Source: an uncultured Verrucomicrobiota bacterium (GTDB lineage: Bacteria > Verrucomicrobiota > Verrucomicrobiia > Verrucomicrobiales > DEV007). Taken from it: a DNA stretch of 64,000 nucleotides. Positions 11,884-53,185 of this stretch are shown one piece after another. The notes below the pieces were generated by a model. That model was not told the DNA's origin, ran no database searches, and saw only the letters and a program-made list of their open reading frames with translations. The stretch covers positions 1 through 64,000 of the forward strand of contig CACIUL010000003.1 in NCBI GenBank assembly GCA_902589825.1, given 5' to 3'. The position numbers and the translations under genes were made by a program. The number at the start of each line of letters is the position of its first letter. Position 1 is the stretch's first letter.

Positions 11884-13188
11884 TCAGACCTCCTCAAGCG
11901 GCATGGTTGCATCCCCGAAGGTCTCCGGCCGCACGTCCATCTTGTCCATCATGCTGAGATAGAGCCGGCACATCTGGCGATCGGCCTTTCCCAGGTAATC
12001 GAGGTTCTGGCCACCCTTGATCCTGCCCCCGCCGCCGCCCAGCATGACGACCGGAAGCTGGTTGGCATCATGGTTGCCGTGGATCATGCTCGAACACAGC
12101 ATCAACATCGAATTGTCCAGCAAGGTGCGTTCGCCTTCCTGGATTGAATCCATCCTGCGGGCAATGTAGGCCACCTGCTCCAGGAAGAACCGGTTTACTT
12201 TCAGCCAATCCTTGCTGTCGCTGTGCGAGAGCAGGTGGTGGATCATGTAATCGACCCCGAGGTGGGGAAAGCGCAGCGTGCCGTGGTCGTTGTTCAGCTT
12301 GAGGGTACAGACACGGGTTGTGTCAGTCTGGAAAGCCAGCACGAGAATGTCGCTCATCAGGCGCATGTGCTCGACGATGTCCTGCGGGTAGCCGTCTTTC
12401 GGCCGCGGAATGTTTGGCTTGGTTAAACTCGGACGCCAACCCTGCAGTTCCCCGCGCTGGCCGGCGTTCTCGATGCGTTTCTCCACTTCCCGAACCGAGT
12501 TCAGGTACTCGTCGAGCTTCTGCTGGTCTCGACGGCTGATCCCCCGCCGGAAATCGTGTGCATCCTCCAGCACCGCATCAAGGACACTCTTGTCGCCGCG
12601 CTGGGCGCGGTCTTTGAACAACTGGTCAAAGGCCAGTGCCGGATAAACCTCCAGTGGAGTCGGCGTCGTCGGACTGCTCCACGAAATATGTGAACTGTAG
12701 AGCATCGAGTAATTCTTGTGCACTGAGGGGTTCGCCTTTTCACAGCCTAATACCAGGCTTGGCACTTTGGTTTGATGCCCGACTCGCTGCGCGATGAGCT
12801 GGTCCACACTGGTGCCGCTGCGGATCGTGCCGCCAGACGCCAGCGGCGCCCCTGAAAGCAGGTTGCCGGTCTGTGAACTGTGGATGTTTCCCTTCAGGGC
12901 CTCAGCGTTATAAAGCCCGCGGATGAACACCATGTTTTCCCGGAATTCGTTCAGCGGCTCAAGGACCTTGCCAAGCTTCATCGACTTGCCTTCACCCTTG
13001 GCCCACCACTCATGTTTGTGGAAGCCACAGCCGGCGAACAGGATTGCCATCCGCGTCGGGGCTTGGCTGGCTTTGTTCCTGGTGGAAATTTCATCGCCCC
13101 ACACGCGCAGCGATTCCATCCAGGGTAACGCGATACTGACACCAATCCCGCGAAGCATGGTGCGACGGGAAAGTTGATATCCGGACAT
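11884..13188 (-). CDS. DUF1552 domain protein, Tat-exported
   Basis: Member of the DUF1552 family common in Planctomycetes and Verrucomicrobia. The start is set at 13188 because MSGYQLSRRTMLRGIGVSI is a twin-arginine signal (SRRTML); the longer ORF from 13269 would overlap the upstream gene. The body contains MAILFAGCGFHKHEWWAKGE, RSGTSVDQLIAQRVG and TRVCTLKLNNDHG, and ends with MKMDVRPETFGDATMPLEEV-like sequence typical of the family. The fold is related to alkaline-phosphatase-like DUF1501 proteins, but no activity is established. Genes for DUF1592/DUF1588 and DUF1552 proteins are usually adjacent, as here, implying a joint periplasmic function. Confidence 0.88.
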   Translation of the reverse strand: MSGYQLSRRTMLRGIGVSIALPWMESLRVWGDEISTRNKASQAPTRMAILFAGCGFHKHEWWAKGEGKSMKLGKVLEPLNEFRENMVFIRGLYNAEALKGNIHSSQTGNLLSGAPLASGGTIRSGTSVDQLIAQRVGHQTKVPSLVLGCEKANPSVHKNYSMLYSSHISWSSPTTPTPLEVYPALAFDQLFKDRAQRGDKSVLDAVLEDAHDFRRGISRRDQQKLDEYLNSVREVEKRIENAGQRGELQGWRPSLTKPNIPRPKDGYPQDIVEHMRLMSDILVLAFQTDTTRVCTLKLNNDHGTLRFPHLGVDYMIHHLLSHSDSKDWLKVNRFFLEQVAYIARRMDSIQEGERTLLDNSMLMLCSSMIHGNHDANQLPVVMLGGGGGRIKGGQNLDYLGKADRQMCRLYLSMMDKMDVRPETFGDATMPLEEV

Positions 13189-13232
13189 TATTTTTTCCTC
13201 GAATTGTGGTGTCTTGCAGTGGTGACTGTCAA

Positions 13233-16200
13233 TCAGTCTTGGTTGTTGTCTCTTCCTCTGATCTCGCAAAATTGCCGACTATTGACAATCATTTCGACTG
13301 CTACGCTGAAACGGTAACCGTTGCCGGCGAGTTTAGCAATTATCATGTCGATCAGTGGCTCATCGGAAAGCTGAGACTCACGGCCAAGTGCATAGCCAAG
13401 CAGTTTACGACAGAACTGCCGCACGACATCCTCACGTCGGTCTTCAGCCAGGTAGTCACGCAAGCCCCGAAGACCCTCGATTTCCTTGCCTCCCGGCAAC
13501 GTGGTCCTGGTGTCCGCGACCTGTGGCCGTAATCGGCCAATGGCATCGTAATGTTCCAGAGCGAAACCATAAGGATCAATCCTGGCATGACACTTGGCAC
13601 ACGCCTCCACCGAACTATGCTTCTCGATCAACTGCCGGGCCGTCAGTCCGGTTGGCACTTCCTCCGGCAAGTCAGGAACACCGGCAGGCGGACGGGGCAG
13701 CCGTTCGCCTAGCAGCGTTTCAAATACCCAGTTACCCCGGAGAATCGGGCTGGTACGAGACGCGCCGGATTGGCTGGCAAGAACAGTTGCCATGCCCAGA
13801 ACGCCACCGCGTCCCTTTTCTCGGATACCTTCCACTCGCCGCCACTGCGGCCCGCTCACTCCCCCGATGTCGTAGTGTTTCGCCAGCGCTTCGTTCAGGA
13901 AGGTGTGATCTGCACTAAGCAAGGAAAGAATCGAACCGTCATTGCGGAACATGTCTTCAAAGAAGCGCACGATTTCCTCATACATATCGCTCCGGAGCTT
14001 AGCAAACTCGGGATAGATCCTTTCGTTCTTATCGTCATTCCGGTCAAAATCGCGTACGTGCAGCCATTGGCAGGCAAAATGGATTGCGAGGCGCCGAATA
14101 CGGGAATCCTTCAGCATCCGCCGCGCCTGTTCGATGACCACCTCCCCATCGGCAAGCTTGCCAGCAAGCGCGATGCGACGCAATTCAGCATCCGGCATCG
14201 ATGACCAGAGGAAATAGCTCATCCGGTTCGCCAGTTCCAGGCCCCTAACAGGCGCAGCCTTCCCGCCCGGTGCCGGTTGTTCCTTGCGGTAGAGAAACGC
14301 CGGCGAAGTCAACACCCGCGCGATCATCAGTCGAATCGCCTCCTCATGCGCAATACCACTCTCACGCAACTGTCCATACAGACCGCGCAACCCCTGTTTC
14401 TCGGAATCAATAAGCGGTCTGCGCCAGGCTCGATCGGCAAGCTGCGCCACCGCCTCAACGTGCATCGGCTCGACAGCAACAAGCCGCTTGCGAAAAGCCT
14501 CTGCCCGACCATTTACAGAGTTCACATGGGGCGCCCAGGCCTTGACCAGATCGGGACGATCCTGAGTTGCAAATTCCCTAATCTGCTCAAAAGCAACCTG
14601 GTATTTCAGCGGTTCACGTGCCACGTAAAACAATTCATCCCACAACCGATCGAGTTCGGCAGCCTGCCTGTCATCCAGCATCAACCGTTTCAGGTGGTCA
14701 TCCTCGCGGTGAAAGAGCGTCAGCGTGACAACCTGGTCGACCGGGACGATACGGGCATAGCAGAGTGCCGGTGGAAACAGGTTGCGAAAGCGGCTGACCG
14801 GCCCCTCCATACGCTCCCGCACCTGGCTCCCCTCACGAATCAGGATTGGATCGTTCACTGAAACATCCAGATCTGCAGGCTTAGTCGCCAGGATTTGCAC
14901 CTGGGCACTGCCATCATGTCCGTGCCTCGGGTCCAGTTCCGCCATGCCGACCAGTTCTCGGCCCCTGGCCAGTTCCGCCGGAACACGAAATTCGATGACC
15001 TCAGGGGCCAGAACCACCAGGTCAGCCGAATCGACAACGTGCCCCAGCGGATGTTGGCCAAAGCGTATCCCCGGTTTCAAATCCTTTTGCAAGGCCGGCA
15101 AATCAATCGGAACCGTCAGCGTGCGCAACTGCCGCTGCAATATCGTATCAGGTGAGTTAGCATCTTCCCGTATCTTTCCCGTGGCCAGTTCCTGCACCTG
15201 CCGTGCCAGTTCACTGCGTCTCACTTCACTCTCTTCGGTGAGCCACTCTGCAAGGATCGAACCAGTAGGCACGGTGACAATGGGCGCACTGCCTTTATCA
15301 ACCTTCACCATTTCACCCTGATAAAAATGCCACGTGCCCTCGTTGCCGTGGCTGTCAGCGTGAGGGTTGCCATCGTGAAGATCCGATGACACATCCCTTG
15401 CAAGGTTCCAGACCCGTTTCGCACCGTCAACCTCGGTAACAATGAGAGTGATAGACGTCAGGTCGCAGGTATGTCCACCTTCTCTCGGCCCAACCAAAAA
15501 TGACAGCAATTCTCCCTTGCCAATCGCAACGGTTATCGGCTTCATCGTGGCCGAGCCACGAACATCGTATTCACCTTTCCACAACGTGCCAACCTTCCCG
15601 GCAACGCGATGCTGCAGCAACCATTCCACTCCGTTACCGCAATCATAATGAGCATCGGCAATACTGGCCTGGACGCGTACCACACCATCAATCGGGCTTT
15701 GCCAACCCACGGCGGCATAATGGGTCGGGGTCGGATGAACCACCACCGAGTGAGCCTTTGCCAGACCGGGAATACGCTCATCTTTGTCCGAGGAGTTTGC
15801 AATCACGGCGGGCAGGGAGTCCGGTCTCGTCGCTGCCCAGCCGGCAATCCCCTTTCGACTGCTGGTTTTTTTCGTCAGGTGACCTTCAACCCTTACAGCA
15901 CTGCTACGTCCGATGCCCAGATAGTCCAGCCACACCTTGAGGGTATCGGCATCAACCTTGTGTTCCGCTGCAACCTTGGCGACACCGCTCTCGGTTTTAA
16001 CGCTACGAGCCGCAGCGAGATAACTGGCAGTATGTCCAAGCATCTCAAGTCGCAACCTGTCTATGCGTTCCTGCAATCCCGCCACGTCCCGTAATACCAG
16101 CGGTGGGCGCCCGCCACCTTCCAGGCGCAGGTTCTTCCAGACGACATAATCGTGGTCATTCCCGTCACCCGCGTCACCCGTGGCGAGGTGGAAGACGGTG

Positions 16201-17351
16201 TCCTTGCCATCTGATGCTACGGGCAGCTGCCATTTCAGGCCCTGACCCGTTGCGAAGAGGGTCTTGACCCCAACCTCCTCCATCCATCGTGGCGGTGCAC
16301 CATCACGACCAATGTGCCCGATCGAATTGAATTTCCACAGCTTCTTCTGTGCCTGCTCGATTTGCGCCACCAGTCCTGAGGGATCATGCGACTCCGTCTT
16401 ACGCCATCGCTCCCGCAAGCTGCCAAGCAGCGTGTCGTCATTCGGCTTTTTCGCTGAAAGAGCCTGCCACAGCCTCAGAAAATATTTGGCATTCAGCTCA
16501 CCTTCATCTGCCACGGCTTGAATGGTTTTCGTGCCACTTTCCAGTGCCTCGCGATGCACAAGCGTCGCCGCCAGATAGCTTGCCAACGGAAGCCGTCCTC
16601 CCTGGTTCGTAGTGAACCTGATCCCGTGAAGATTTACGCCGGAACCGCCACCGTCCTCCGTGAACTGACGATAAAAGGCCTGGATGCTGGTAAGCAGCTC
16701 ATCGGTTTGATCACGTTCTGTCGTGTAAGGGGAAAACCGGATCCCTTCCGGGGTGAGCACGGCGTGGGCGGCAATCTCCTTGGCGGCATCAAGGTATTTG
16801 GTCAACAAAGCCGGTGACATGACCTGCGCAGCTCCTGTGTTCGTAAATCCCTCACCCGCTGCCCCATCGACTGGAAACTGGCGTGTCGGATCAAGGGATT
16901 CAATCCCAGTGAGATCCCGGACAGTATAGTTATACTCCGCGTTATTTAATCGCTTCAGGATAACCCTGCCGGGATCGCCCGCGCGCAAGCGCGCCTCCGC
17001 GGCAAGAAAACCCTGCACCCAGTGCTCAAGTTGTCGTCGCTGCCCAGCATCCGGTTGCTCGGATTTCCTCGGCGGCATCTGTCTGCTGGAAAGCATTTCA
17101 GCCACCTTGATCCAGACCTTTGTAGCCCGCCGGATATCGGCAACTTCCTTAAATGAATCAAGGTCGATATCGGCCTCGGAATCCTCACCTGAATGGCACT
17201 CGAAACAATATTGGCTGAGCAACGGCCTGATCTCGCTACCATATGTGCTTTCCAATGTATCCTGCTGCCCATATACAACACCCGACAGGAAGACACTGCC
17301 TGAAAGGCCCCATAACAAGACAGCATGAACGCAACAGTATCGAAAAACCAT
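13233..17351 (-). CDS. DUF1587/1592/1588/1585 planctomycete-type cytochrome protein
   Basis: A giant secreted protein of about 1372 residues. The start at 17351 (MVFRYCCVHAVLLWGLSG) gives a clean signal peptide. Order: haem-type CFECH at about 60-64 of the longer ORF, DUF1587 (LKRLNNAEYNYTVRDLTGI), a long middle segment with carbohydrate-binding-like beta regions, DUF1595 (DRAWRRPLIDSEKQGLRGLY), DUF1592 (LANRMSYFLWSSMPDAELRR), DUF1588 (SGASRTSPILRGNWVFETLL) with a second CxxCH (CAKCH), and DUF1585 (FCRKLLGYALGRESQLSD). Two CxxCH motifs support c-type haem binding. The role is unknown in the family; a periplasmic oxidoreductase linked to polysaccharide breakdown has been suggested. First gene of the DUF1592-DUF1552-propeller operon. 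Confidence 0.9.
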   Translation of the reverse strand: MVFRYCCVHAVLLWGLSGSVFLSGVVYGQQDTLESTYGSEIRPLLSQYCFECHSGEDSEADIDLDSFKEVADIRRATKVWIKVAEMLSSRQMPPRKSEQPDAGQRRQLEHWVQGFLAAEARLRAGDPGRVILKRLNNAEYNYTVRDLTGIESLDPTRQFPVDGAAGEGFTNTGAAQVMSPALLTKYLDAAKEIAAHAVLTPEGIRFSPYTTERDQTDELLTSIQAFYRQFTEDGGGSGVNLHGIRFTTNQGGRLPLASYLAATLVHREALESGTKTIQAVADEGELNAKYFLRLWQALSAKKPNDDTLLGSLRERWRKTESHDPSGLVAQIEQAQKKLWKFNSIGHIGRDGAPPRWMEEVGVKTLFATGQGLKWQLPVASDGKDTVFHLATGDAGDGNDHDYVVWKNLRLEGGGRPPLVLRDVAGLQERIDRLRLEMLGHTASYLAAARSVKTESGVAKVAAEHKVDADTLKVWLDYLGIGRSSAVRVEGHLTKKTSSRKGIAGWAATRPDSLPAVIANSSDKDERIPGLAKAHSVVVHPTPTHYAAVGWQSPIDGVVRVQASIADAHYDCGNGVEWLLQHRVAGKVGTLWKGEYDVRGSATMKPITVAIGKGELLSFLVGPREGGHTCDLTSITLIVTEVDGAKRVWNLARDVSSDLHDGNPHADSHGNEGTWHFYQGEMVKVDKGSAPIVTVPTGSILAEWLTEESEVRRSELARQVQELATGKIREDANSPDTILQRQLRTLTVPIDLPALQKDLKPGIRFGQHPLGHVVDSADLVVLAPEVIEFRVPAELARGRELVGMAELDPRHGHDGSAQVQILATKPADLDVSVNDPILIREGSQVRERMEGPVSRFRNLFPPALCYARIVPVDQVVTLTLFHREDDHLKRLMLDDRQAAELDRLWDELFYVAREPLKYQVAFEQIREFATQDRPDLVKAWAPHVNSVNGRAEAFRKRLVAVEPMHVEAVAQLADRAWRRPLIDSEKQGLRGLYGQLRESGIAHEEAIRLMIARVLTSPAFLYRKEQPAPGGKAAPVRGLELANRMSYFLWSSMPDAELRRIALAGKLADGEVVIEQARRMLKDSRIRRLAIHFACQWLHVRDFDRNDDKNERIYPEFAKLRSDMYEEIVRFFEDMFRNDGSILSLLSADHTFLNEALAKHYDIGGVSGPQWRRVEGIREKGRGGVLGMATVLASQSGASRTSPILRGNWVFETLLGERLPRPPAGVPDLPEEVPTGLTARQLIEKHSSVEACAKCHARIDPYGFALEHYDAIGRLRPQVADTRTTLPGGKEIEGLRGLRDYLAEDRREDVVRQFCRKLLGYALGRESQLSDEPLIDMIIAKLAGNGYRFSVAVEMIVNSRQFCEIRGRDNNQD

Positions 17352-17491
17352 TCTCCCTTCAGACACGCTTAAATACCCTACCAATACGACCGATCTTTAT
17401 ACAATAAATAAGTATCACCCGTCATTTAGTGATCACCTTTTGCCCTGCAGACTTGCAGTGAAAGGAATTTTGCCCCACAATCCACGCCATC

Positions 17492-18595: not shown

Positions 18596-19606
18596 TTACT
18601 TGACTTTGGTGTACTTGGTTACCCTGCCGTGCACGTTCCATTCCTGGGCGTAAAGGTCCCCCTTGGCATCAAATGTGCAGCCATGTACAGCAATCAGGGC
18701 ACCCACATGCCAGTCAGCCGGGCCAACACGGTTCCCTGCCTTTTTGCGATTTTTCGGTTCATCGCCAAGGCGGGAAATCAGCTTGTTCTCCTTATCATAA
18801 AGTGAAACCCTGCCATCCAGCTCACCAACTGCGAGAAGCTCACCATGGATGTCGGCAGCACAGGGACGCCCCAGCTTGCCGTCAATTGTCCTGATAAATT
18901 TCCCGTCCATGTCATGTAATTGCAGGCGGTTGTTCTGGCGGTCACTTATCAAAAGGCTCGGCTTATCGGAACGGGTATCAATGAGTATATTGTGACAGAT
19001 ATTGAACTGTCCGTCCTCCTTGCCCTTGCCGCCGAAAGTTTTCAGGTAATTACGGTCCTTGTCATAAACGTGAACCAGTGACTTGCCATAACCATCAACT
19101 ATGTAAACCCTTCCATCAGGGGCAACATCGAGGTCAGTCGGATTGTATTGGGAGATACTCCCATACATTCCCTCTACCTTTGGCGGCCCGATAATTTGCC
19201 ATACCACAGTGCCGTCGAACCTGACATTGACCACGCGCTTTACGCCCGGCATCGCTATGATGAGTGTCTCTTCACCGTCGATCTTGCGCACCTTCATGCC
19301 ATGCACTCCCCTGAAGGCCTTGTTACCGTTCTTGGCTCGCAACTCTCCCTCGTAGGTTCCATCGGCGGCAATCACCTGAATCGTCCCGCCGGTGGCAATA
19401 TAGACCTTTCCCTTGCTATCAGCAGCAATGTCGCCATGCAGGTTTCCCAGTTTCGTGCCTTCGGGATACTTCGGCCAGTTACGAACCACTTCATAAATAC
19501 CCGCACCCTGACCGGTCCTGGCTGGAGAGGCATTGGAATTATCCTGAGCAAAACAGGTGACTGCAGGCAGTGAGAACAGGGCAAGAAATGTGGAAATTGT
19601 TTTCAT
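18596..19606 (-). CDS. Secreted NHL-repeat six-bladed beta-propeller protein
   Basis: A 336-residue exported protein; signal peptide LALFSLPAVTCFA. Propeller repeats are visible as DIAADSKGKVYIAT, LDVAPDGRVYIVDGYGKSLV, YDKDRNYLKTFGGKGKEDGQ and TFDAKGDLYAQEWN, the GxxxxP-x-G-x-hydrophobic-Y-V pattern of NHL domains. The layout is close to the peptidylglycine alpha-amidating lyase-like propellers that PVC bacteria secrete, but the metal-site residues were not checked. It may belong to the same transcript as the two larger secreted genes upstream (125-base gap). Confidence 0.8.
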   Translation of the reverse strand: MKTISTFLALFSLPAVTCFAQDNSNASPARTGQGAGIYEVVRNWPKYPEGTKLGNLHGDIAADSKGKVYIATGGTIQVIAADGTYEGELRAKNGNKAFRGVHGMKVRKIDGEETLIIAMPGVKRVVNVRFDGTVVWQIIGPPKVEGMYGSISQYNPTDLDVAPDGRVYIVDGYGKSLVHVYDKDRNYLKTFGGKGKEDGQFNICHNILIDTRSDKPSLLISDRQNNRLQLHDMDGKFIRTIDGKLGRPCAADIHGELLAVGELDGRVSLYDKENKLISRLGDEPKNRKKAGNRVGPADWHVGALIAVHGCTFDAKGDLYAQEWNVHGRVTKYTKVK

Positions 19607-19731: not shown

Positions 19732-21663
19732 CTAGCCTCCTGCCCTGAACTGGATCAAGCGTAGCAACGTTTCGGTCGAAGCATTGTTCGTATTATAGAA
19801 ATCGGCACCATATACCATGACCCAGCCACGCTCCATGCGCCGCCCCATGACCACGGCACCATTGCCGCCGCCTTTAGCAGCTCCCCAGATTTCCCAGGGT
19901 TGAGCCTGCCGGTAATAGTGCGTTGAATTCACATTACTGACAACACCCTCAACCTTTGCACCAAGCTTCCTGCCTTCAGCGGTAAACTCCCAACCGGTTC
20001 CGCTCCCCCCGGAACGCAACGGTCCCAATCCACATTCATTAAAAAAGGACAATGCCTCGCCCGTGGGACTGAGAAAAACAATGTTCCCTCCGCGGCGAAG
20101 AAAATCACGGAACACCTCACTCCAGCTCGGGCATCCCCGTCCATCCTTTTCCATGGCATCCTTCAATACAGACTTCTTGAAAGCTTCCATTTCAGGAACC
20201 AGCAAGACACGTGAACGCCGCAAATGCCGCATGAAGTCACCATCCGGGACTCTCGACCTGCTGCGGATCAACTTTCTGGCAGGGATCCGATTATCGATAG
20301 CGTCAATGGTCTTGCGATACTCATCATCCTCATCAGAATAACCGCCCCAGACGAGGACCGGGGCACTTGCTGGAAGCCCTTCATGGCCAAAACTCAGTGA
20401 CTCTACCCTCTCCAGCGGTACAACCACGCGCTCTGAACCAAGAGCGGAAAGCAGGAGATTGTTGCCATCCACCTCGATTTTTTTTGCCCATAACATCCCG
20501 GCCGGAGCAAGGGAAACCAGGTGGAGTATTGCCGCTTCAGGTTCCTCATCAGTCCCGGTATCGGCATCCTCCACATGATCGACAGGTAAAGGCTCTCCAT
20601 TATTGCCGTCATTCTCCACTTTGATATCTTCAGCGAGCAACTCCTCGACATCGACAACCACAGCCTGCGGATCAGGAAAGACAAGCAGATCAATCAGGGA
20701 CAACGGTGCCTCTACCGAGAGTATCGGGCTTGAGATTCGCAGCCACCTCTCAGAGTCGACAGAAGGCAAAAGCTGCCCGGCAACAATCTCGCCGGTGGCA
20801 AGGGCCGCGACATGCCGGCCGGGAACCAGGGGCAGGATTCCTTTAGCGGCATCACTGAGCGGCTCACTACGCTCTATTCTTGTTACCTCTGTAAGCGGCA
20901 GGCTGAGCTCCGTCCCGCTGCCGGCAAAGGAGACGACTATTGCCTTGTCACCAAGCCTGACCAAGTGGCCGGGAATTTCCGATCCATCCCTTAGCGAAAC
21001 ACGGAATTCAAGGCCCTTGTCATTTTCTTCAGGAGGCTGCTTTCCCGGGGCATGTCGACTTAAGGAACTGATTTTCCTCAATGGTAATTTCAACTCCTTC
21101 CCGGGATTGAGAACCGGGCGAAATATCAGGTGGTCATTTTTCATGGCAAGGATTTCACCTGCCATTGCCACGGTAATGGAAAGTTGCTCCTCCCTGCCGG
21201 CCGGCTCTTTGTCATTGCTTGCCGGGTTCCCTCCCCCCGGGCCTTCCTTGGGCTTGCCGGGCACCTCCTCAACTTCCTCTTTATCACCTTCAACAGGCAC
21301 CTTTTTTTCAGGTTTCTTTTCCGAGGCAGGTTCCCCTTCCTTTTTCTGTTCATCCTTCAGTTTTAATTTGGGCAGCACCTCAAGGAGCTCCTTCACCTTG
21401 CCTTTCAACTTGGCCGTAATTTCTTCATCTTCCTTTTTGGGATCCTTATCGTCTTTTTCCGTCTTTTTCTCTGCCGCCTTGCGGCGCGATTCCTGCACAG
21501 CCTCCGGTAGAGAGCGCTCGGCAACCAACTCAATCCACCAATCCATTGCGGGCTGCGCACCGGAAATGCCAATAAAAACCATGAGTGACCACGTGACGGT
21601 CACTGCACGAGAAAACCTTTTCAACTGTTGGATCCTAGCGCACATGGATTGTGGAAATAACAT
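19732..21663 (-). CDS. Secreted protein with charged linker, repeated beta modules and a GATase-like C-terminal domain
   Basis: A 643-residue exported protein not assignable to a named family. A hydrophobic N-terminal segment (about 22-40) is followed by a Lys/Glu-rich low-complexity stretch (about 55-155). From about 165 to 450 there are several similar beta modules, for example LRDGSEIPGHLVRLGDKAIV and LATGEIVAGQLL, resembling small SH3/Sm-like barrels. The last 180 residues fit a class I glutamine-amidotransferase-like fold (RSRVLLVPEMEAFKKSV, FRDFLRRGGNIVFLSPTGE, GWVMVYGADFYNT) without an obvious catalytic Cys nucleophile. Its start overlaps the end of the upstream gene by 29 bases, so the two are probably translated together. 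Confidence 0.7.
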   Translation of the reverse strand: MLFPQSMCARIQQLKRFSRAVTVTWSLMVFIGISGAQPAMDWWIELVAERSLPEAVQESRRKAAEKKTEKDDKDPKKEDEEITAKLKGKVKELLEVLPKLKLKDEQKKEGEPASEKKPEKKVPVEGDKEEVEEVPGKPKEGPGGGNPASNDKEPAGREEQLSITVAMAGEILAMKNDHLIFRPVLNPGKELKLPLRKISSLSRHAPGKQPPEENDKGLEFRVSLRDGSEIPGHLVRLGDKAIVVSFAGSGTELSLPLTEVTRIERSEPLSDAAKGILPLVPGRHVAALATGEIVAGQLLPSVDSERWLRISSPILSVEAPLSLIDLLVFPDPQAVVVDVEELLAEDIKVENDGNNGEPLPVDHVEDADTGTDEEPEAAILHLVSLAPAGMLWAKKIEVDGNNLLLSALGSERVVVPLERVESLSFGHEGLPASAPVLVWGGYSDEDDEYRKTIDAIDNRIPARKLIRSRSRVPDGDFMRHLRRSRVLLVPEMEAFKKSVLKDAMEKDGRGCPSWSEVFRDFLRRGGNIVFLSPTGEALSFFNECGLGPLRSGGSGTGWEFTAEGRKLGAKVEGVVSNVNSTHYYRQAQPWEIWGAAKGGGNGAVVMGRRMERGWVMVYGADFYNTNNASTETLLRLIQFRAGG

Positions 21664-23443
21664 TCTTTAGCCAGACCTTCACCGCATAGCCCTCGGGCGT
21701 GTATTCAGCCAGCCCCTTTTCTGTTCCCACCAGGGTATTGCCGTTTGGTAAACGCGCGGCACTGCTGATGACATTGACTCCCTTTGGATGAATACTGGAC
21801 AAGACAACTTTCCCGTCAGGCGAAGTCTCGATCACTCGCATTTTGCCTGCATTGGGTCGCCGGTCACTATCTTCCTTGGCTAATTCCGCGTCTACAACCA
21901 CAAGCAAGTTACCGCTCTCAAGACGCTCCACCCAACGGGGATGATCAAAGCCCTCCACGCGCCATAATAACTGCCCTTTACTTCCATATTCAGCCAAACT
22001 GCCCGCCTCGGGATGCGCACAGAGGAAACGCCCTTCACGCAACCTCTTGAAGGAAAGAATCCTGGATGGCATTTTCCATACCCCCGCGCGCCCCCCACTG
22101 ATATCCAATTCTTCAACCTCACTGCCAATTGCCACCAGTAACCTGCCTCCCGGCATGATCGCTGCCCCCCCTTCCACCGGAATCCCGGAGGCACTCCAGA
22201 TCTCTTTGCCTTCATTAGTGAAAACAGCTACCCGCCCCGCCTCATGTCCACCTCCGGAAGCAACCGCCAAGCCGGCAGGATCATTAAATGATATGGAATC
22301 CGGCCGGATCGACGCCATCGAGGCAGCCAGTCCGGACTTGCTCAACTTCCTCCCACTGGTTGTCCACGGAGTCACTGCCCCGTCCTTTCCCGGTGGGGTT
22401 GCCACAAGCACCATAAACTCACCCCGGGCACCTCTTCCAATCCTTGCCTCCTCGAGGATCACATCATCTGCCAGGCTTCCCAGGTAATTCTGCCACCGTC
22501 CAACTGCCTCGGCCCTGCTCCCTGCACGATCATAGCCGGCAAAGCCAAAGTCCTTGTCATGGAGAACTCGGAGCAGGATCCCGGCCTCATGACGCACACG
22601 CAGGTTCTCCGAGCCCAATAATTGAAGGAGCACTTTGGAGACTTCAGCATCCCCTTTGGCAGCACGTCCACGCGCCATGGCCAACTCAAGAAATTCGTCA
22701 TCTCCCACCAAATCGGTGACGCGGCTCTTCTCGATCCCAGATAAAAATCGATAACCTATGACAAAGGCTGCAAGTTCCCTCTCTGATTGATAGTCAGAGT
22801 GCAGAGATTTTTCAAACACCTCACGATCCTGCTGCTGCGAACACTCTGCCGCCGCAATCTCAAACATGCGCAACAGATCCCAGTGTGACACGGGATCAAA
22901 AGTTGAGGACATCACCCCCAGGCGGCTACCCCAACCCGGAAGCGATCTCGAGCTCAACCTGCCGGCGACATGATAAAGCGCATCAAGGCGTCGCTGCTTA
23001 ATGCGCACATTGAGTATTCCCTGAATGCGTCTGGACATCTCCGCTCCGGCATCCCTTCGGGCACCTCCAAGCAAATGCTCAATGGGAGCCGCCACCATCA
23101 CCAGTGCCCTTGAGGCATCATTACGCTTCCGGAAATCCTCAGCATCAAGATCACCGATCTGCCTGATCACCCGCTCAAGCTCGTCGCTCTGGAGAAATAG
23201 GGGGGTAATCTTTTTCTCAAAATCCTGATCCTCAGGATTCATCTCCAGGTCCACAAGAATGGAATCTCCTGCCGTCAGGGGCCACTGCTCTGCCTTCTCT
23301 TCTTCACCCGGACCGGCACTTTCCGGCTCTGCTGCTGCCTCTACACCGCCGACCAGCTCAAGTGCACAAAGAACACCACCACCTGACAACAGTGGTGACA
23401 TCCAGAAAACAAGAACGAAATTCAACAAGGTAAACCTACCCAT
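21635..23443 (-). CDS. Secreted HEAT-like/beta-propeller protein of unknown function
   Basis: About 602 residues. The start at 23443 (MGRFTLLNFVLVFWMSPLLSGG) gives a signal peptide; 23461 is the alternative. The N-terminal half is helical and HEAT-like: VIRQIGDLDAEDFRKRNDAS and LRVRHEAGILLRVLHDKDFG are typical repeats. The second half is a propeller with short blades such as RVAVFTNEGKEIWSASG, LAEYGSKGQLLWRVEGFDHP and AARLPNGNTLVGTEKGLAEY. This combination resembles secreted PVC proteins that monitor or bind polymers, with no known activity. It precedes the GATase-like gene with a 29-base overlap, which points to a functional pair. Confidence 0.7.
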   Translation of the reverse strand: MGRFTLLNFVLVFWMSPLLSGGGVLCALELVGGVEAAAEPESAGPGEEEKAEQWPLTAGDSILVDLEMNPEDQDFEKKITPLFLQSDELERVIRQIGDLDAEDFRKRNDASRALVMVAAPIEHLLGGARRDAGAEMSRRIQGILNVRIKQRRLDALYHVAGRLSSRSLPGWGSRLGVMSSTFDPVSHWDLLRMFEIAAAECSQQQDREVFEKSLHSDYQSERELAAFVIGYRFLSGIEKSRVTDLVGDDEFLELAMARGRAAKGDAEVSKVLLQLLGSENLRVRHEAGILLRVLHDKDFGFAGYDRAGSRAEAVGRWQNYLGSLADDVILEEARIGRGARGEFMVLVATPPGKDGAVTPWTTSGRKLSKSGLAASMASIRPDSISFNDPAGLAVASGGGHEAGRVAVFTNEGKEIWSASGIPVEGGAAIMPGGRLLVAIGSEVEELDISGGRAGVWKMPSRILSFKRLREGRFLCAHPEAGSLAEYGSKGQLLWRVEGFDHPRWVERLESGNLLVVVDAELAKEDSDRRPNAGKMRVIETSPDGKVVLSSIHPKGVNVISSAARLPNGNTLVGTEKGLAEYTPEGYAVKVWLKNVISTIHVR

Positions 23444-23619
23444 CGGTAAAAACTTTACCACAGGCTAAGCCAGTTCGCCGAGAGCTGCAAGAATACCCAT
23501 GCGTCCCGGCAACACCTTAAGTGAACAGCCACGACCCAACAATAAACCGCCTCTTTTAACGATAAAGGGCCTCATGCCAGCCCTCCCCCAAAAAAATCAG
23601 AAACTCAGGATTTACCTGA

Positions 23620-23874
23620 TTAGGCAGCAGATGATGCACTCTTCCGGGCCTTGCGAATCAGGCTGCGCACTGTGTCACTGGGCTTTGCACCCTTGCCAAT
23701 CCACTGATCGACCTTCTCCAGGTCCATGGCGTCTTTACCCTCATGCATTGGGTCATAGACACCAACACTCTCAATGAACCTGCCATCACGGGGGGAACGC
23801 GAATCAGTAACGACAACCCTGTAATAAGGGCGACCCTTTGATCCTTCTCTTCTCAAACGAATTACAACTGCCAT
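23620..23874 (-). CDS. rpsP: 30S ribosomal protein S16
   Basis: 84-residue small-subunit ribosomal protein. [20 protein letters not shown] and [16 protein letters not shown] are diagnostic of S16. The ORF can be extended nine codons upstream to a GTG, but the conserved family start is the ATG at 23874. A GGAGG lies 17 bases upstream of it, rather far for a standard ribosome-binding site. It follows ffh on the same strand (117-base gap), the frequent ffh-rpsP order, but the usual rimM, trmD and rplS do not follow; a secreted-protein gene comes next. Confidence 0.97.
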
Positions 23875-23991
23875 GTTATCAGTGATGAGTGCCTCCGGCA
23901 CAATCTGTCCAACTGCGCCTTTTTGAAGCGGGCGCTAAATTTGCCCTCTTTTCGCCAATTGCCAAGGTTTTTTTTATAACCAAGGCAAATC

Positions 23992-25359
23992 CTAGAATTT
24001 CATCCCCTTTGGCAATCCCCCAAGACTGTCCATATCCATCCCTCCTCCTCCAAGTTGTCCCAGCATCTTGCGCATCTTACCCTTGCTTCGCATCATTTTC
24101 CGCATCTGGCCGAATTGGCGCAAAAACTGATTCACCTGCGTAATACTGTTGCCGCTGCCCCGGGCAAGGCGAAGGCGCCGTTTGCCATTTAGAATCTCCG
24201 GACGACTACGCTCCTTCGGAGTCATGGACAATACAATCGCCTCAACTCTCTTCAGTTTGCCTTCATCCATTGCCCCGGCCAGTCCCTTCAGCTTTGATGC
24301 TCCAGGCAACATGCCCAGAATCCCGTCCAGGGGTCCCATCTTCTGCATCATCTTCATCTGCGCCAGGAAATCATTGAAATCGAAGGATTTCTTTTCCATC
24401 CGCTTTGCCATTTTCATGGCTTCTTCCTCATCAATGGCCTCTGCCGCCCTCTCGACAAGACCGACAACATCCCCCATTCCAAGGATTCGCTCAGCCATGC
24501 GGGAAGGCACAAAGACATCGAGGTCAGTGAGCTTTTCCCCCTCACCTACAAACTTGATCGGTTGACCAGTCACCGAGCGCATGGAAAGTGCAGCACCGCC
24601 CCTGGCATCACCATCAAGCTTGGTCAGAACGATTCCGGTAATGCCAACCGCATCATTGAAATGTGTCGCCACGCTGACTGCCTGCTGGCCAGTAGCCGAA
24701 TCAGCAACAAGCAGGGTTTCCCTGGGCTTGAGCAAGTCAGTAAGGCGCTTGAGTTCCTCTATCAGCTCAGTATCGATCTCCTGTCTTCCCGCAGTATCAA
24801 AAATCAAGACATTTCCACCCTGGGCCTCCGCCCAGACGAGGGCCTTCTTGGCAGCCTTCACAATATTCTTCTCTCCCGGATCAGGCCGGAACACCGGAAC
24901 ATCAATCTCAGCCGCAAGGGTGGCCAATTGTTCCACGGCTGCCGGCCGGTAAAGGTCACAGGCGATAAGCAGCGGTTTACGTCCCTCTTTCTTAAGGCGC
25001 AGGGCAAGCTTTCCCGAGGTCGTGGTCTTGCCCGCTCCGTTGAGACCGCACATGACAATCCTTGCAGGAACGTTCAAATCCAGGGCTGCAGCATCCCCAC
25101 CGAAGAGTTCAGTCAAGCAGTCCTGAAATATCTTAACTACCTGCTGCCCGGGAGTCACACTCCTTAGAACCTTCTCACCAAGGGAACGCTCCTTGACCTT
25201 GGCTATGAATTCCTTGGCGACACCAAAGTCCACATCTGCCTCAAGCAGGGCCATCCGCACCTCACGCATCGCATCCGCGACATTCTTCTCGGTGATTTTT
25301 CCCTGGCCCTTGAGTTTCTTGAAAACGCCCTCAAGGCCTCCTGAAAGTTGCGCAAACAT
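23992..25359 (-). CDS. ffh: Signal recognition particle protein Ffh (SRP54)
   Basis: GTPase of the signal recognition particle, which binds 4.5S RNA and signal sequences and docks with FtsY. N domain with LSGGLEGVFKKLKGQGKITE; G domain with P-loop GLNGAGKTTTSGKLA, DTAGRQEID, LTKLDGDARGG and FVGEGEKLTDL; M domain from about residue 320 with methionine-rich MRKMMRSKGKMRKMLGQL. Length is normal. The preferred start is MFAQLSGG at 25359, nine bases inside the longest ORF. The 4.5S RNA gene is not visible in the window. Upstream, the end of a sulfatase gene on the same strand leaves a 68-base gap with an inverted repeat. Confidence 0.97.
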   Translation of the reverse strand: MFAQLSGGLEGVFKKLKGQGKITEKNVADAMREVRMALLEADVDFGVAKEFIAKVKERSLGEKVLRSVTPGQQVVKIFQDCLTELFGGDAAALDLNVPARIVMCGLNGAGKTTTSGKLALRLKKEGRKPLLIACDLYRPAAVEQLATLAAEIDVPVFRPDPGEKNIVKAAKKALVWAEAQGGNVLIFDTAGRQEIDTELIEELKRLTDLLKPRETLLVADSATGQQAVSVATHFNDAVGITGIVLTKLDGDARGGAALSMRSVTGQPIKFVGEGEKLTDLDVFVPSRMAERILGMGDVVGLVERAAEAIDEEEAMKMAKRMEKKSFDFNDFLAQMKMMQKMGPLDGILGMLPGASKLKGLAGAMDEGKLKRVEAIVLSMTPKERSRPEILNGKRRLRLARGSGNSITQVNQFLRQFGQMRKMMRSKGKMRKMLGQLGGGGMDMDSLGGLPKGMKF

Positions 25360-25374
25360 AATCGGCAATGTGGT

Positions 25375-25427: not shown

Positions 25428-27365
25428 TTAAGTCCCTGATTCAGGCTTTTTAGCCTTTCTCTTCCTCTTGTCTTTTTTTTCACGCCGCTGTTTTGCCCGG
25501 GACTCCTTATTCGTATTCTTGGAAGTTGTAATTCCAAGGTCTGTAGCGGCTTTCTTGATCACATTGCCAATATAGTTCTCTCCATAGGCGCCGATTTTCT
25601 CACTATCACCAACCTCGGCAATCCTGGCCACCGCCACGCGGGCGGTTTCGTCCATGTGGTCAAGGACATTCATGGCACGCAGGCGTGAAAAAGCGTTCTT
25701 CTCTTCCATTACTGCCTGCAAAACAACAACAGCCCGACCACCCTCACCCTGCTTAAACAAGGCCTGTGCTGCAGCAGTGCGGACGTCAGCAGAGGAATCC
25801 CCGCATAACTTCAGTAAATCCCTTCTGGCAAGTGCCGCCTTGTCAGCCAGCAGAATGCAGCCTGTCGCACCCCAGTAGCGAATGGCTGCATCAGGATCAC
25901 GCATCATGCTGCGCAATTGATCGAGATCACCAGCTCTCGCGTTCACCGCCTTCTCTGCTGCAGACTTGATCCTGGCAAGGGGATATTTCTTGGCGTGACG
26001 ACCAAATTCATACGGGGTCAGGCTTCCCCTCCTGTCATGCATCTGGCCCTCAGGCAAGAATCCCAGGTCCCTGATTTCCAGCTGCCAGCGGTCCAGTTCC
26101 CGGGCCAGCCGTGCAAGTTGCCCGGCATGCTCCGGGCTGGCTGCCAGGTTATGTATCTCATGCGGGTCAGCATGGGTATCATACAGTTCAACAGGTGGCT
26201 TGGTTTTCCAAAAGGCACTTTGCACTGCGTTGAGCTTGCCCTGATCAAACAACTCTTTCCAGATCCGTGTCGTGTCGGTCTGGAACATGTAGGCAATATA
26301 TTGCCCGTAGACCTGGTGTGGATTGTAATTGCGGATGTATTTGTAGCGCTTGTCCCTGACTGCCCGAACCATGTCATAACGCTCATCCATGCGACCGCGA
26401 AAGGCATGAACATATTGCCGCGGGGCAACTGCATGCTCCCCGAGAAAAGCCTTTCCGTGCATGTGCGGGGGAGGCTTGATCCCGGCAAGGCTCAAAACCG
26501 TTGGCCCGAGGTCGACAAAACTGACAAGCCTGCCCGTCTTTTTTCCCGGGGCCACCTCACGCCAGGCACTCCACTTTTCCGGGATCCTTACCAATAAAGG
26601 AATGTGAATGCCGGAATCCCACAGCCAGCGCTTGTGCCTGGGCATGCCGGAACCATGGTCACCGTAATAGAAAACGATCGTGTCCTCCGAAAGTCCCGCA
26701 TCAGCCAACTCCTTGAGATTGGCAGCGACAATGTCATCAAGCTTGGAAATGTTGGCGTGGTACTGCGCCCAGTCCCTTTTTGTCTCCGGTGTATCAGGAT
26801 GATAAGGAGGCACCGGCGCATCTTCAATCTTGTGGTAGGGAAAAGACTGCTCCCCCAGCCGGATCTTGCTCTCATGAGAAATTGTATGGTTGAAAATGGC
26901 AAAGAAAGGCTTGCCGTCAGGGGCATTTTTCCAGTGGGCATTACGGCCCGAGTCATCCCAGGCCCCAGGAGGCTCAATCAGGTTGTAATCCTTCTTGGCG
27001 TTATTAGTGCAATAATATCCCACCTCACGCAGGTAATGGGAATAAAAGCGGATACCTTCAGGAAGCGGTGCCCGGCTGCGCATGTGCTGACTGCCCAGTG
27101 CAGGAGGATACATTCCGGTAATGATTGTTGAACGTGCAGGGGCACAGACTCCGGCCGTGGCAAAGGCATGGGTATATATGGCACTGTCTGCCGCCAAAGC
27201 ATCCAGTGCCGGTGTATGGGCATATTTCTGGCCAAATGATCCAAGGTCGGGACCGTTGTCCTCACTGGTAATCCAAAGGATGTTAGGCTGTTTTCCACAT
27301 AAAGGCCCCACGCCAATGATTCCGCACAGAAGTATCTTCAGGATCATTGCTCTCGATGTTCTCAT
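25428..27365 (-). CDS. Secreted formylglycine-type sulfatase with C-terminal HEAT repeats
   Basis: Type I sulfatase acting outside the cytoplasm on sulfate esters. The signal peptide is best read from the ATG at 27365 (MRTSRAMILKILLCGIIGVG); the ORF extends to 27386. Metal-site start QPNILWITSEDNGPD is followed by the formylglycine motif CAPAR-STIITG, whose Cys is converted to formylglycine, and later YYGDHGSGMPRHKRW for the Asp-His metal and substrate residues. Past about residue 470 two to three HEAT-like repeats (MRDPDAAIRYWGATGCILL, SADVRTAAAQALFKQG) follow, then a Lys/Arg-rich tail of about 25 residues. The substrate is unknown. No maturase gene is in the window. Confidence 0.92.
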   Translation of the reverse strand: MRTSRAMILKILLCGIIGVGPLCGKQPNILWITSEDNGPDLGSFGQKYAHTPALDALAADSAIYTHAFATAGVCAPARSTIITGMYPPALGSQHMRSRAPLPEGIRFYSHYLREVGYYCTNNAKKDYNLIEPPGAWDDSGRNAHWKNAPDGKPFFAIFNHTISHESKIRLGEQSFPYHKIEDAPVPPYHPDTPETKRDWAQYHANISKLDDIVAANLKELADAGLSEDTIVFYYGDHGSGMPRHKRWLWDSGIHIPLLVRIPEKWSAWREVAPGKKTGRLVSFVDLGPTVLSLAGIKPPPHMHGKAFLGEHAVAPRQYVHAFRGRMDERYDMVRAVRDKRYKYIRNYNPHQVYGQYIAYMFQTDTTRIWKELFDQGKLNAVQSAFWKTKPPVELYDTHADPHEIHNLAASPEHAGQLARLARELDRWQLEIRDLGFLPEGQMHDRRGSLTPYEFGRHAKKYPLARIKSAAEKAVNARAGDLDQLRSMMRDPDAAIRYWGATGCILLADKAALARRDLLKLCGDSSADVRTAAAQALFKQGEGGRAVVVLQAVMEEKNAFSRLRAMNVLDHMDETARVAVARIAEVGDSEKIGAYGENYIGNVIKKAATDLGITTSKNTNKESRAKQRREKKDKRKRKAKKPESGT

Positions 27366-27420
27366 GCTTTCCATATGACCGGTCATCTAATCGATGCAAC
27401 TGGCTTTATCCACGCCGGCC

Positions 27421-49589: not shown

Positions 49590-50855
49590 ATGAAACACGC
49601 CATCCAAACTGACCAGTTCGGCGCTCACGGCAAGGCAATGGCCAAGGCGGTCGAAACATGCGTGCACTGCGGATTTTGCCTGCCTGACTGCCCGACATAC
49701 CGCGAACTTGGCCAGGAAATGGACTCCCCCCGTGGAAGGATTGTCCTCATGAAGGAGGTCCTCGAAGGCAACCTGGAGCTCTCCCGCGCATTGCCTCATG
49801 TCGACCGCTGCCTTGGATGCCTCGCATGTGAAACCACCTGCCCCTCAGGGGTGGAATACGGGGAACTGATCAGTCCTTTCCGGGATTATGCCGAGTCACG
49901 CCGCAAACGCGGTTTGCTAGAAAATCTAAAGCGCAGGTTCCTTGGTTCAATGCTGACGCACCCGGCACGGTTCCGCAGGTTGGCAAAAATGGCCTCAGTG
50001 GCTCGGCCACTGCGCAGGTTATTGCCGAAGTCCTTGAGCGTGCCCCTCGGCCTGTTGCCCAGAAAACTGCCTGGACAGGAAAAACTCTCAAGCCATTACC
50101 CGGCCAAGGGCAGTGAGAAACGAGGCAGCGTTGCCCTGCTTGCCGGTTGTGCCCAGCAGGTTCTCTCTCCCCAGATCAACCTTGCTACCATTGATCTTCT
50201 CACCCGTAACGGCATCGATGTTGCGATTCCCCAAGAACAGGGGTGCTGTGGTGCCCTTGCCTGGCACGTTGGGGATGGCGCACGTGCTCGCTCCCTGGCA
50301 CATCAAAACCTCAGGGCCTTTGACGGGAAATTTGATGCCGTCATCACGAATGCAGCCGGCTGCGGGTCGGGCCTCCATGAATACCCGATGATGCTTGCTG
50401 GCACGAAAGCACAGGAGGAAGCCGGGGAATTCGCCGGCAAGGTCCGGGACATTTCCGTATTCCTTGACGCCCTCAGCCTGCCGCCGCCCCCGGATCCGGG
50501 CAAGCAACTCAGGATTGCCTACCATGATGCCTGCCATCTGGCACATGCACAGGGCATTCGCAATGCCCCCAGGAACCTGCTTCAGTCAATTCCCGGATCC
50601 AGCCTTATTGAATTACCCGATGCCAACCTGTGTTGCGGATCAGCCGGGACCTATAACCTCGATCACCCTGATACCGCGGCTCAACTTGGTGCAAAGAAGG
50701 CTGCCATCCTTGCCGAGACCGGTGCTGACATGATCGCATCCGGCAACATCGGATGCCTCTCCCAGTTAAAGTATCACATGGAAAAAATTGACTGCCGGAT
50801 ACCCATCCTTCATACAGTGGAAATCATGGCTGCTGCATACCGCAACCAACTCTGA
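49590..50855 (+). CDS. glcF: Glycolate oxidase iron-sulfur subunit GlcF
   Basis: 421 residues from the ATG at 49590, one base after the glcE stop (the track ORF begins 38 codons upstream inside glcE). Two [4Fe-4S] motifs, CVHCGFCLPDCP and CLGCLACETTCPSG, are followed by two CCG domains (GCCGALAWHVGDG; YHDACHLAH and NLCCGSAGTYNL). It carries electrons from GlcD/GlcE to the quinone pool. Its stop TGA overlaps the start ATG of the next gene (TGATG). Confidence 0.95.
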   Translation: MKHAIQTDQFGAHGKAMAKAVETCVHCGFCLPDCPTYRELGQEMDSPRGRIVLMKEVLEGNLELSRALPHVDRCLGCLACETTCPSGVEYGELISPFRDYAESRRKRGLLENLKRRFLGSMLTHPARFRRLAKMASVARPLRRLLPKSLSVPLGLLPRKLPGQEKLSSHYPAKGSEKRGSVALLAGCAQQVLSPQINLATIDLLTRNGIDVAIPQEQGCCGALAWHVGDGARARSLAHQNLRAFDGKFDAVITNAAGCGSGLHEYPMMLAGTKAQEEAGEFAGKVRDISVFLDALSLPPPPDPGKQLRIAYHDACHLAHAQGIRNAPRNLLQSIPGSSLIELPDANLCCGSAGTYNLDHPDTAAQLGAKKAAILAETGADMIASGNIGCLSQLKYHMEKIDCRIPILHTVEIMAAAYRNQL

Positions 50856-53185
50856 TGAGAAGTTTACTCCCTTTACTCCTGCTCTGCCTGCCCTGGACGC
50901 ACCCCGCCCCGGCTCAACCATCCTCTTCATCCCCCCCGAACATTGTACTGGTGATGTGCGATGACCTCGGCTGGGGGGATACCGGATTTAACGGAAACAC
51001 CATTGTCCAGACCCCTCACCTGGACAGGATGGCTGCTGCCGGGATGCGCTTTAACCGCTTCTATGCAGCAGCTCCTGTCTGCTCCCCGACCAGGGGCAGC
51101 GTGCTCACCGGGCGCCATCCCTACCGCTATGGCATCTATTTTGCCAATACCGGGCACATGAAGAGCGAGGAAATCACCCTTGCCGAGCTGCTCAGGAAAA
51201 AAGGATACCGCACCGGGCACTTTGGAAAGTGGCACGTTGGAACCCTGACCAAGACGGTAAACGAAGCCAACCGCGGTGGCCCGCGTGGAGTCAAGCACTA
51301 CTCGCCTCCACAGGACAACGGCTTTGAAGTCTGCTTTTCAACCGAGTCCAAGGTGCCCACCTGGGATCCCATGTGGACCCCAAAAAAACACTCAGGGGGA
51401 AGTAACCGCAGGCTTTGGTGGGAACCACTGGAGGACACCACGAACATGCAGCGATATGGAACTCATTACTGGGACCAGGAGGGCAGGCAGGTCACCGAAA
51501 ACCTGCGCGGCTCCAACGCGCGTGTCATCATGGACCGCGCGATTCCATTTATTGAATCAGCAGCAAAGGCCGACCGCGCCTTCATGGCTGTCGTCTGGTT
51601 TCATACACCCCACCTGCCCGTAGTCGCAGGTCCAAGGCATGCTGCCATGTATAAGGAATTTGATAGCTACAAGAAACACTACTACGGCTCGATCACTGCC
51701 ATGGACGAACAGGTCGGCCGTCTGCGTCAGGCCTTAAAAAAAGCGGGGGTTGCCGACAACACGATGCTTTGGTTCTGTTCTGACAATGGGCCTGAGGGCA
51801 ATGACTCGGCTCCCGGTAAAACCGGAGGCTTCCGCGGCCGCAAGCGCAGCCTCTACGAGGGAGGCATTCGCGTACCCGGTTTACTGGAATGGCCGGCAGT
51901 TGTAAAACCGGGAAGCATTACCGATTTTCCCGCAGCAACACTTGACTACCTGCCGACAATCCTCGGGGCAATCGGGGAAAGCATGCCCGATGCACGTCCC
52001 ACTGACGGCATCAACCTGCGCCCCGCCATAGAGGGCAAGCTCAGGGAACGCCCTGCAGGGATTGGTTTCCAGAGTGCCGGGACGGCCGCCTACATCACCC
52101 ATCAATATAAGCTGGTCCTGCCCGGCGTGAAAAAGAAGGCAAACAAGTCCGGCACCAAAAAACCAACCCCTGAGCTCTATGACCTGATTGATGACCCCCA
52201 TGAAAAAAAGAACATCGCCGTCAGTCATCAATCACAGGTCAACGACCTGATGGCAGAGTTCAAAAAATGGCAGCAGTCATGTGCCCGAAGTGATGCAGGA
52301 AATGACTACACGATTCCTGCCAAGGCGGATTCTTCCGCCACGGGACAACCATTGCGTTTTGGCGCTATTGCCGACTGCCAGTTTGCTGATATCCCCACCC
52401 GCGGTTCACGCCATTACAGGCTGGCCAGTGAAAAGCTCTCTGCCGCCGTAAAGCATCTTAACGGGGAACCACTGGATTTTGTCATTCACCTGGGCGATTT
52501 CATCGATCAAGACTGGGATAGCTTCGATGCAGTGGGGCCCATATTCCGCTCCCTTAAAGCACCTGGTTACCACCTGCTGGGCAATCATGACTACTCAGTT
52601 AAGGACTCCAAGAAAGGCGAAGTCATCGAAAAGCTAGGCATGCCTGCCCGGTATTATGACTTCACCGTGAAAGGCTGGCGCTTTATCGTTCTTGACGGCA
52701 ACGAATTAAGCCTCTACGCCCACCCAAAAGGTTCCAAGCAGCTGGCCAAGTCAGTGGCTTTCAGGAAAAAATACAAGAATCCCCCGGACTATTGTGGCGG
52801 AATGGGGCAAGCCCAGATCAAGTGGATGCTATCCAGGATTGCCATGGCCCGTGATGCCGGAGAGAAGGTGATCCTGTTTAATCATTTCCCTATTTATCCC
52901 GCCGGTCGTGGACACAACCTCTGGAATGACACCGAGTTACTCGAGGTCCTCAAGCCTTTCAGGGGAACTGTAGCCGCATGGATCAACGGCCACAACCATG
53001 GCGGAGCCCATGCCGAGCGTGACGGCATCCATTATCTCACGCTGAAGGGAATGCTCGACACCAGGGAAAATGCCTTTGCCATTATCAGGGCAGGAAAAGA
53101 TAGCCTCGAGGTTGACGGCTTCGGGCGGGAGCCGGACCGCACGCTCAAGCTGCCAAAGCCAACCTCCACAAGAACAGGAAACTAA
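50855..53185 (+). CDS. Sulfatase fused to an ADPRM-like metallophosphoesterase, secreted
   Basis: 776 residues; signal peptide LLPLLLLCLPWTHPAPA. The N-terminal sulfatase (about 25-475) has NIVLVMCDDLGWGDTGFNGN, the formylglycine motif CSPTRGSVLTGRHPY (Cys76) and GHFGKWHVG. From about 495 a calcineurin-like phosphoesterase follows: FGAIADCQFADI, FVIHLGDFIDQDWDSF, YHLLGNHDYSVK, FNHFPIYPAG and INGHNHGGAH give every metal-ligand block. It is closest in style to ADP-ribose/CDP-alcohol diphosphatase (ADPRM) enzymes. The frame is continuous, so this is a true fusion and not two genes. Both active sites look complete. Coupled to glcF by a 1-base overlap. Confidence 0.9.
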   Translation: MRSLLPLLLLCLPWTHPAPAQPSSSSPPNIVLVMCDDLGWGDTGFNGNTIVQTPHLDRMAAAGMRFNRFYAAAPVCSPTRGSVLTGRHPYRYGIYFANTGHMKSEEITLAELLRKKGYRTGHFGKWHVGTLTKTVNEANRGGPRGVKHYSPPQDNGFEVCFSTESKVPTWDPMWTPKKHSGGSNRRLWWEPLEDTTNMQRYGTHYWDQEGRQVTENLRGSNARVIMDRAIPFIESAAKADRAFMAVVWFHTPHLPVVAGPRHAAMYKEFDSYKKHYYGSITAMDEQVGRLRQALKKAGVADNTMLWFCSDNGPEGNDSAPGKTGGFRGRKRSLYEGGIRVPGLLEWPAVVKPGSITDFPAATLDYLPTILGAIGESMPDARPTDGINLRPAIEGKLRERPAGIGFQSAGTAAYITHQYKLVLPGVKKKANKSGTKKPTPELYDLIDDPHEKKNIAVSHQSQVNDLMAEFKKWQQSCARSDAGNDYTIPAKADSSATGQPLRFGAIADCQFADIPTRGSRHYRLASEKLSAAVKHLNGEPLDFVIHLGDFIDQDWDSFDAVGPIFRSLKAPGYHLLGNHDYSVKDSKKGEVIEKLGMPARYYDFTVKGWRFIVLDGNELSLYAHPKGSKQLAKSVAFRKKYKNPPDYCGGMGQAQIKWMLSRIAMARDAGEKVILFNHFPIYPAGRGHNLWNDTELLEVLKPFRGTVAAWINGHNHGGAHAERDGIHYLTLKGMLDTRENAFAIIRAGKDSLEVDGFGREPDRTLKLPKPTSTRTGN

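Follow-up and report, generated by a model that had tools for sequence, protein, structure and literature searches.

Here, we describe a pair of large overlapping genes (gene 1 and gene 2) on the minus strand of a 64,000-nt stretch of DNA, referred to as the window, from an uncultured bacterium of the Verrucomicrobiales. In this lineage-restricted pair, known modules are newly combined: a HEAT solenoid and a six-bladed propeller in the gene 1 protein, and small barrels and a domain resembling the Class I glutamine amidotransferase (GATase) fold in the gene 2 protein. Since the two genes are always found side by side, overlapping by the same 11 bases, their products probably belong to one envelope complex. 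Our tentative proposal, held at slightly less than even confidence, is that, as subunits in a fixed ratio, they make up a single exported binding scaffold located in the periplasm or on the outer surface. Literature searches found no description of the gene 1-gene 2 pair.

Architecture of the two exported proteins

The pair is bracketed by rpsP (23620-23901) and a gene for an NHL propeller (18596-19606). Its features, in window coordinates, are as follows.

23992-25368, minus strand: ffh, conserved upstream neighbour, probably outside the system
23620-23901, minus strand: rpsP, conserved upstream neighbour, probably outside the system
21635-23443, minus strand: gene 1, exported HEAT-solenoid and six-bladed-propeller protein, 602 aa; an upstream GTG at 23461 is a possible start
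23363-23443, minus strand: predicted signal peptide of gene 1 (approximate); the N-terminus is hydrophobic in every homolog whose start is intact
22475-23272, minus strand: HEAT-like solenoid of gene 1, 16 helices, ending in a conserved FGFAxYD...R...W cap
21641-22414, minus strand: six-bladed beta-propeller of gene 1, PQQ_2/BamB-like repeats by profile
21635-21645, minus strand: overlap of gene 1 and gene 2, 11 bases, ATGNNNNNTAG type; ATG at the same position in 14 of 14 genomes
19732-21645, minus strand: gene 2, exported protein, 637 aa (643 aa from the earlier-assumed ATG at 21663)
21556-21645, minus strand: predicted signal peptide of gene 2 (approximate)
21199-21555, minus strand: short Trp-containing N-terminal segment of gene 2, common to homologs, then a Lys/Glu/Pro-rich linker of variable length
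21031-21177, minus strand: Sm/KOW-like module 1 (HHalign, model, Foldseek)
20863-21021, minus strand: Sm/KOW-like module 2 (HHalign, model, Foldseek)
20665-20841, minus strand: Sm/KOW-like module 3 (HHalign, model; low model confidence)
20374-20535, minus strand: Sm/KOW-like module 4 (HHalign, model, Foldseek)
19735-20373, minus strand: GATase-like alpha/beta domain; invariant D438, D441, E442, E485, E487, E553 and D615, no invariant Cys or His

Both genes are under purifying selection with similar dN/dS values of about 0.11-0.14, several times the value of ffh, at synonymous distances near saturation. Each product carries an N-terminal hydrophobic signal segment and lacks an internal transmembrane segment. 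Export is predicted for both, and neither a lipobox nor a surface-sorting signal was seen in either protein, which leaves the surface complex of the first-pass annotation as a possibility. Two large minus-strand reading frames, the selection on them and their signal segments thus bear out the first-pass annotation, which had described an overlapping pair of large secreted proteins. The large plus-strand reading frame opposite gene 2 (20603-21670) is taken as a by-product of composition. Searches of the two window proteins against Pfam, NCBIfam, PHROGs and PADLOC gave no matches above cut-off; with PADLOC and PHROGs without match, neither protein was assigned to known anti-phage defence or phage families.

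The AlphaFold2 model of the gene 1 protein is confident (mean pLDDT 87.5, pTM 0.89): 16 helices at high pLDDT precede about 24 strands, which we interpret as six blades. In a PDB profile search the helical half matched designed alphaRep/HEAT proteins at 1e-18, in line with the helical-pair solenoid of HEAT-repeat proteins (alphaRep/HEAT_2, PF13646); HEAT_2 itself is weak on the window protein and reaches 5.6e-6 in one homolog. PQQ_2 matches 7 of 11 gene 1 homologs (best 3e-7), and the PDB folds closest to the model are propellers, among them those of Bacteroides surface lipoproteins, BamB and 3no2. The earlier designation as a HEAT/propeller protein is therefore well founded. With PQQ/BamB-like and arylsulfotransferase-type propellers, 3no2, 3dsm and BtuG-like surface lipoproteins, gene 1 shares blade repeats, export and a probable binding surface; it differs from them in having six blades, no lipobox seen and no ASST-type invariant His, and is only 8-20% identical to solved propellers. 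An arylsulfotransferase (ASST) was rejected, as the propeller holds no invariant His and Pfam ASST matches are weak and limited to few members. Proteins of the same genome family that combine HEAT repeats with a 3-keto-disaccharide hydrolase have HEAT halves similar to that of gene 1 but lack the six-bladed propeller.

The gene 2 protein was modelled without its linker, and the model is moderate (mean pLDDT 63, pTM 0.47). Confidence is mostly 65-86 in modules 1, 2 and 4, about 40-53 in module 3 and mostly 80-88 in the alpha/beta core, with a poorly modelled stretch near the end. The Lys/Glu-rich linker and repeated beta modules noted earlier were recovered as a linker and four modules that align mutually (pairwise HHalign E 5e-4 to 0.3). 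The linker itself is not conserved: it is long in some relatives and almost absent in two divergent genomes (G012 and G024). By Foldseek, the modules group with Hfq and Spt5 KOW barrels; for Hfq, the probability is 1.00 and the TM-score by target 0.61-0.71, at an E-value of 0.005 or weaker on a moderate model. Searching the PDB by profile with the modules alone gave chance-level matches only. The predicted likeness to Sm/Hfq/KOW small barrels comes from fold comparison, and gene 2 differs in carrying four barrels in tandem within an exported protein, a location that makes RNA binding by these modules unlikely.

Three further observations concern other parts of the window. A sulfatase gene with C-terminal HEAT repeats (25428-27386) lies directly upstream of ffh and is conserved there in several relatives. 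At 50855-53185, a single chain of 776 aa joins a sulfatase domain (28-374) to a calcineurin-like metallophosphatase domain (501-716). Genes of DUF1552 (HXXSHH) and DUF1592/1588/1587/1585 planctomycete-cytochrome type stand in tandem at 11884-17384.

Linkage and the gene junction

Among 75 genomes of the Verrucomicrobiales family to which the window belongs, 14 hold a gene 2 ortholog, always directly downstream of a gene 1 ortholog; one further genome (G037) shows a gene 1 fragment at a contig edge. The genes are adjacent in every genome where both are visible. The co-occurrence check suggested by the first-pass annotation, for which frequent separation would count against a unit, thus gave 0 separations in 14 and points to a genuine linked unit. 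Genera g1, g12, g15 and g16 form a near group with ffh identities of 78-95%. Genus g10 lies outside it (ffh 71%) and has a divergent copy of the pair in a different neighbourhood; in the g6 genome the pair is present and ffh was not found. Outside the family, the full pair was not found and matches were limited to single-domain propellers and Sm-like modules. A scan of 84,980 species genomes with two peptide motifs, which very distant forms could escape, returned 13 loci, all in Verrucomicrobiota and apparently all within the family set. Judged by these sequence searches, the pair was detected in no more than a few genera, all within one Verrucomicrobiales family.

In one g16 genome (G043), rpsP is followed directly by an alpha/beta-hydrolase gene and both pair genes are absent; the same hydrolase gene flanks the pair in four relatives (G018, G041, G045 and G032), and tblastn found no remnant of gene 1 or gene 2 in G043. 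The simplest reading is a loss of the pair as a unit, for a genome that is 83% complete, whose contig ends soon after the locus and which may hold a copy elsewhere. Given the strict adjacency and this joint absence with intact flanks, the pair seems to be kept or lost as a unit.

The 29-base overlap reported earlier requires gene 2 to start at 21663, an ATG common only to the closest relatives, and has to be revised. Instead, all 14 genomes of the junction alignment share the ATG at 21645, down to about 25% protein identity; it begins ten bases ahead of the final base of the gene 1 stop codon. Because this ATG is so conserved and reading from it runs straight into the gene 2 signal peptide, the overlap is most likely 11 bases. 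The 11-base overlap is kept even in G012 and G024, whose gene 1 proteins show about 25% identity and close with YAD where the others have HVR or HVH; hence it is the position that is maintained, not the amino acids. Near the gene 2 start of G024 (locus L052, 2278-2376) there is an apparent frameshift, with the conserved ATG and the long reading frame in different frames, which may be an assembly error. By eye, no Shine-Dalgarno sequence is evident before the ATG at 21645 in the window, which fits a restart by terminating ribosomes and is not proof of it.

Gene pairs at distances of -8 to +10 nt are 4.5-8.1-fold enriched for subunits of heteromeric complexes (PMC10666635), a range just outside which the 11-base overlap falls. 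About 55-70% of short-distance pairs are not classed as complexes in the same study (PMC10666635), which leaves room for two exported proteins that act independently, the overlap being a matter of operon compaction alone and the link one of co-expression, with no complex formed. We consider this unlikely, though worth serious attention, as the precise 11-base arrangement persists down to about 25% identity and G043 lacks both genes together.

The GATase-like domain

Foldseek matched the C-terminal domain of gene 2 to GATase-like folds, namely 2gk3 and beta-galactosidase middle domains, with probabilities of 0.96-0.99 at E-values of about 0.01-0.02 on a moderate model. The probability is 0.99 for 2gk3, and beta-galactosidase and mannosidase entries reach 0.90-0.97. 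The term GATase-like domain, used in the first-pass annotation, agrees with this likeness to 2gk3 and the beta-galactosidase middle domains. With the Class I GATase-like fold (2gk3 STM3548, beta-galactosidase middle domain, ThuA) the domain shares a predicted flavodoxin-like alpha/beta topology; it differs in carrying invariant acids in place of the conserved Cys and His and in having no match at the sequence level. PDB profile searches with the domain alone gave only chance-level matches, and a wider search of 236 class genomes found no convincing relative. Since the Foldseek E-values for the gene 2 matches discussed here, both Hfq/KOW and GATase-like, are 0.005-0.02 (0.0025 at best for gene 2 overall), these predicted folds are leads, not proofs.

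No Cys or His is invariant across 11 sequences, so that glutamine-amidotransferase chemistry is unlikely. The lack of an evident nucleophile that had been noted is thus confirmed, and an active glutamine amidotransferase was rejected, as the missing invariant Cys and His argue against a conserved Cys-His-Glu triad in these sequences. Seven acidic residues are invariant in the same set, an invariance that depends on two divergent sequences. Of these residues, five (D438, D441, E485, E487 and D615) sit in the loops that follow strands 1 and 3 and the last strand, and E442 adjoins this acidic loop group while E553 lies elsewhere. Loops at the C-terminal strand edge are where GATase-like folds place ligand sites. 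These loops hold 5 of 7 invariant acids vs 2 of 18 non-invariant ones (Fisher p 0.007, a post hoc value, as the loops were defined from the model and chosen after seeing it). Of the structural or binding role suggested earlier, binding is favoured over an amidotransferase because the catalytic residues are missing; structural alone is too narrow, since the invariant acids cluster at the ligand edge of the fold.

The same cluster could serve an enzyme. In such a case the gene 2 head would be a GATase-fold hydrolase or transferase that uses the acids, perhaps with a Thr or Ser at the elbow, on an envelope or dissolved polymer, and gene 1 would be a substrate-guiding partner. The seven acids, five of them in the C-terminal-edge loops, agree with this, as do the hydroxyl residue that all 11 sequences carry at the nucleophile elbow (Ser in two of them, otherwise Thr) and the structural likeness to beta-galactosidase middle domains. 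In GH42-type enzymes, however, the GATase-like middle domains are non-catalytic trimerisation parts, and the gene 2 domain has neither an invariant His or Cys nor a sequence family match. We therefore regard an enzymatic head as rather unlikely, and a predicted binding site as more economical than an unusual enzyme. Quite improbable is a bolder version, in which the pair would be a previously undescribed two-subunit exported receptor or enzyme whose GATase-type fold has exchanged Cys-His-Glu for an acidic ligand or catalytic site, mounted on Sm-like barrels and a HEAT-propeller platform.

A possible binding scaffold and similar modules elsewhere

The proposed two-subunit binding scaffold is supported by the scaffold-type folds of gene 1 and by a propeller without invariant His. 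By termination-reinitiation, a ribosome that completes gene 1 would start again at the gene 2 ATG. The HEAT-propeller protein would act as a platform on which the gene 2 protein may dock via its N-terminal segment, its Sm-like modules or both. The GATase-like head, tethered by the flexible charged linker, would bind a ligand in its acidic pocket without hydrolysing glutamine.

Comparable modules were observed at other loci. On another contig of the window genome (C38; locus L189, 1653-8773), an SQHop-like gene is followed by genes for a 640-aa HEAT protein and a 1382-aa protein with a BamB-type propeller and an F5/8C domain; this is a further pairing of HEAT and propeller genes in these genomes. 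Similarly sized genes follow in the same order in three relatives (L192, L193 and L194), the domains having been checked in L189 only. Sm-like modules occur in proteins of 470-545 aa that adjoin an SQHop-like gene (L181, L182, L183 and L148), apparently including Akkermansia, and no Pfam entry above cut-off covers these modules. The large Sm-module proteins beside SQHop-like genes in Akkermansia-type genomes carry the same module as gene 2 (E 1e-8 to 1e-4) but have no detectable GATase-like domain or HEAT-propeller partner and occupy another genomic place. HEAT proteins of 490-520 aa stand beside apparent ribosomal protein genes (S9, L13) at four loci (L141, L142, L143 and L150), at most of which a prepilin-peptidase-like gene is also adjacent; the C-terminal half of the L143 protein is a 3-keto-disaccharide hydrolase by Pfam, and the other three are similar by sequence. 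In G012, a MoxR-DUF58-BatA operon (contig C273; L138, 1-9547) includes a HEAT protein, a trypsin-like protein and a BatA protein with a weak ThuA/GH42M-like domain. Homology of the gene 2 C-terminal domain to this BatA-fused domain was unsupported (hhalign E 0.42).

Orthologs aside, the closest relative of the gene 1 HEAT half is a 320-aa protein of that G012 operon (E about 2e-27), and Sm-like modules recur next to the SQHop-like gene in Akkermansia-type genomes and others; even so, a detached accessory of a MoxR-DUF58-BatA or SQHop-type envelope operon found across Verrucomicrobiota is very improbable, as the pair adjoins ffh-rpsP, with NHL and sulfatase genes as further neighbours, outside any MoxR/BatA operon, and HEAT and small-barrel modules are common. 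The parallels suggest a common style of envelope scaffold, a shared function not being established.

Verrucomicrobiota export many large HEAT, propeller and small-barrel proteins, most of them without known function. On its own, the pair leaves the established picture unchanged. With its fixed junction and its apparent retention or loss as a unit, it offers a tractable case for probing such exported scaffolds and for asking if an acidic binding site can arise from a repurposed GATase-type fold.
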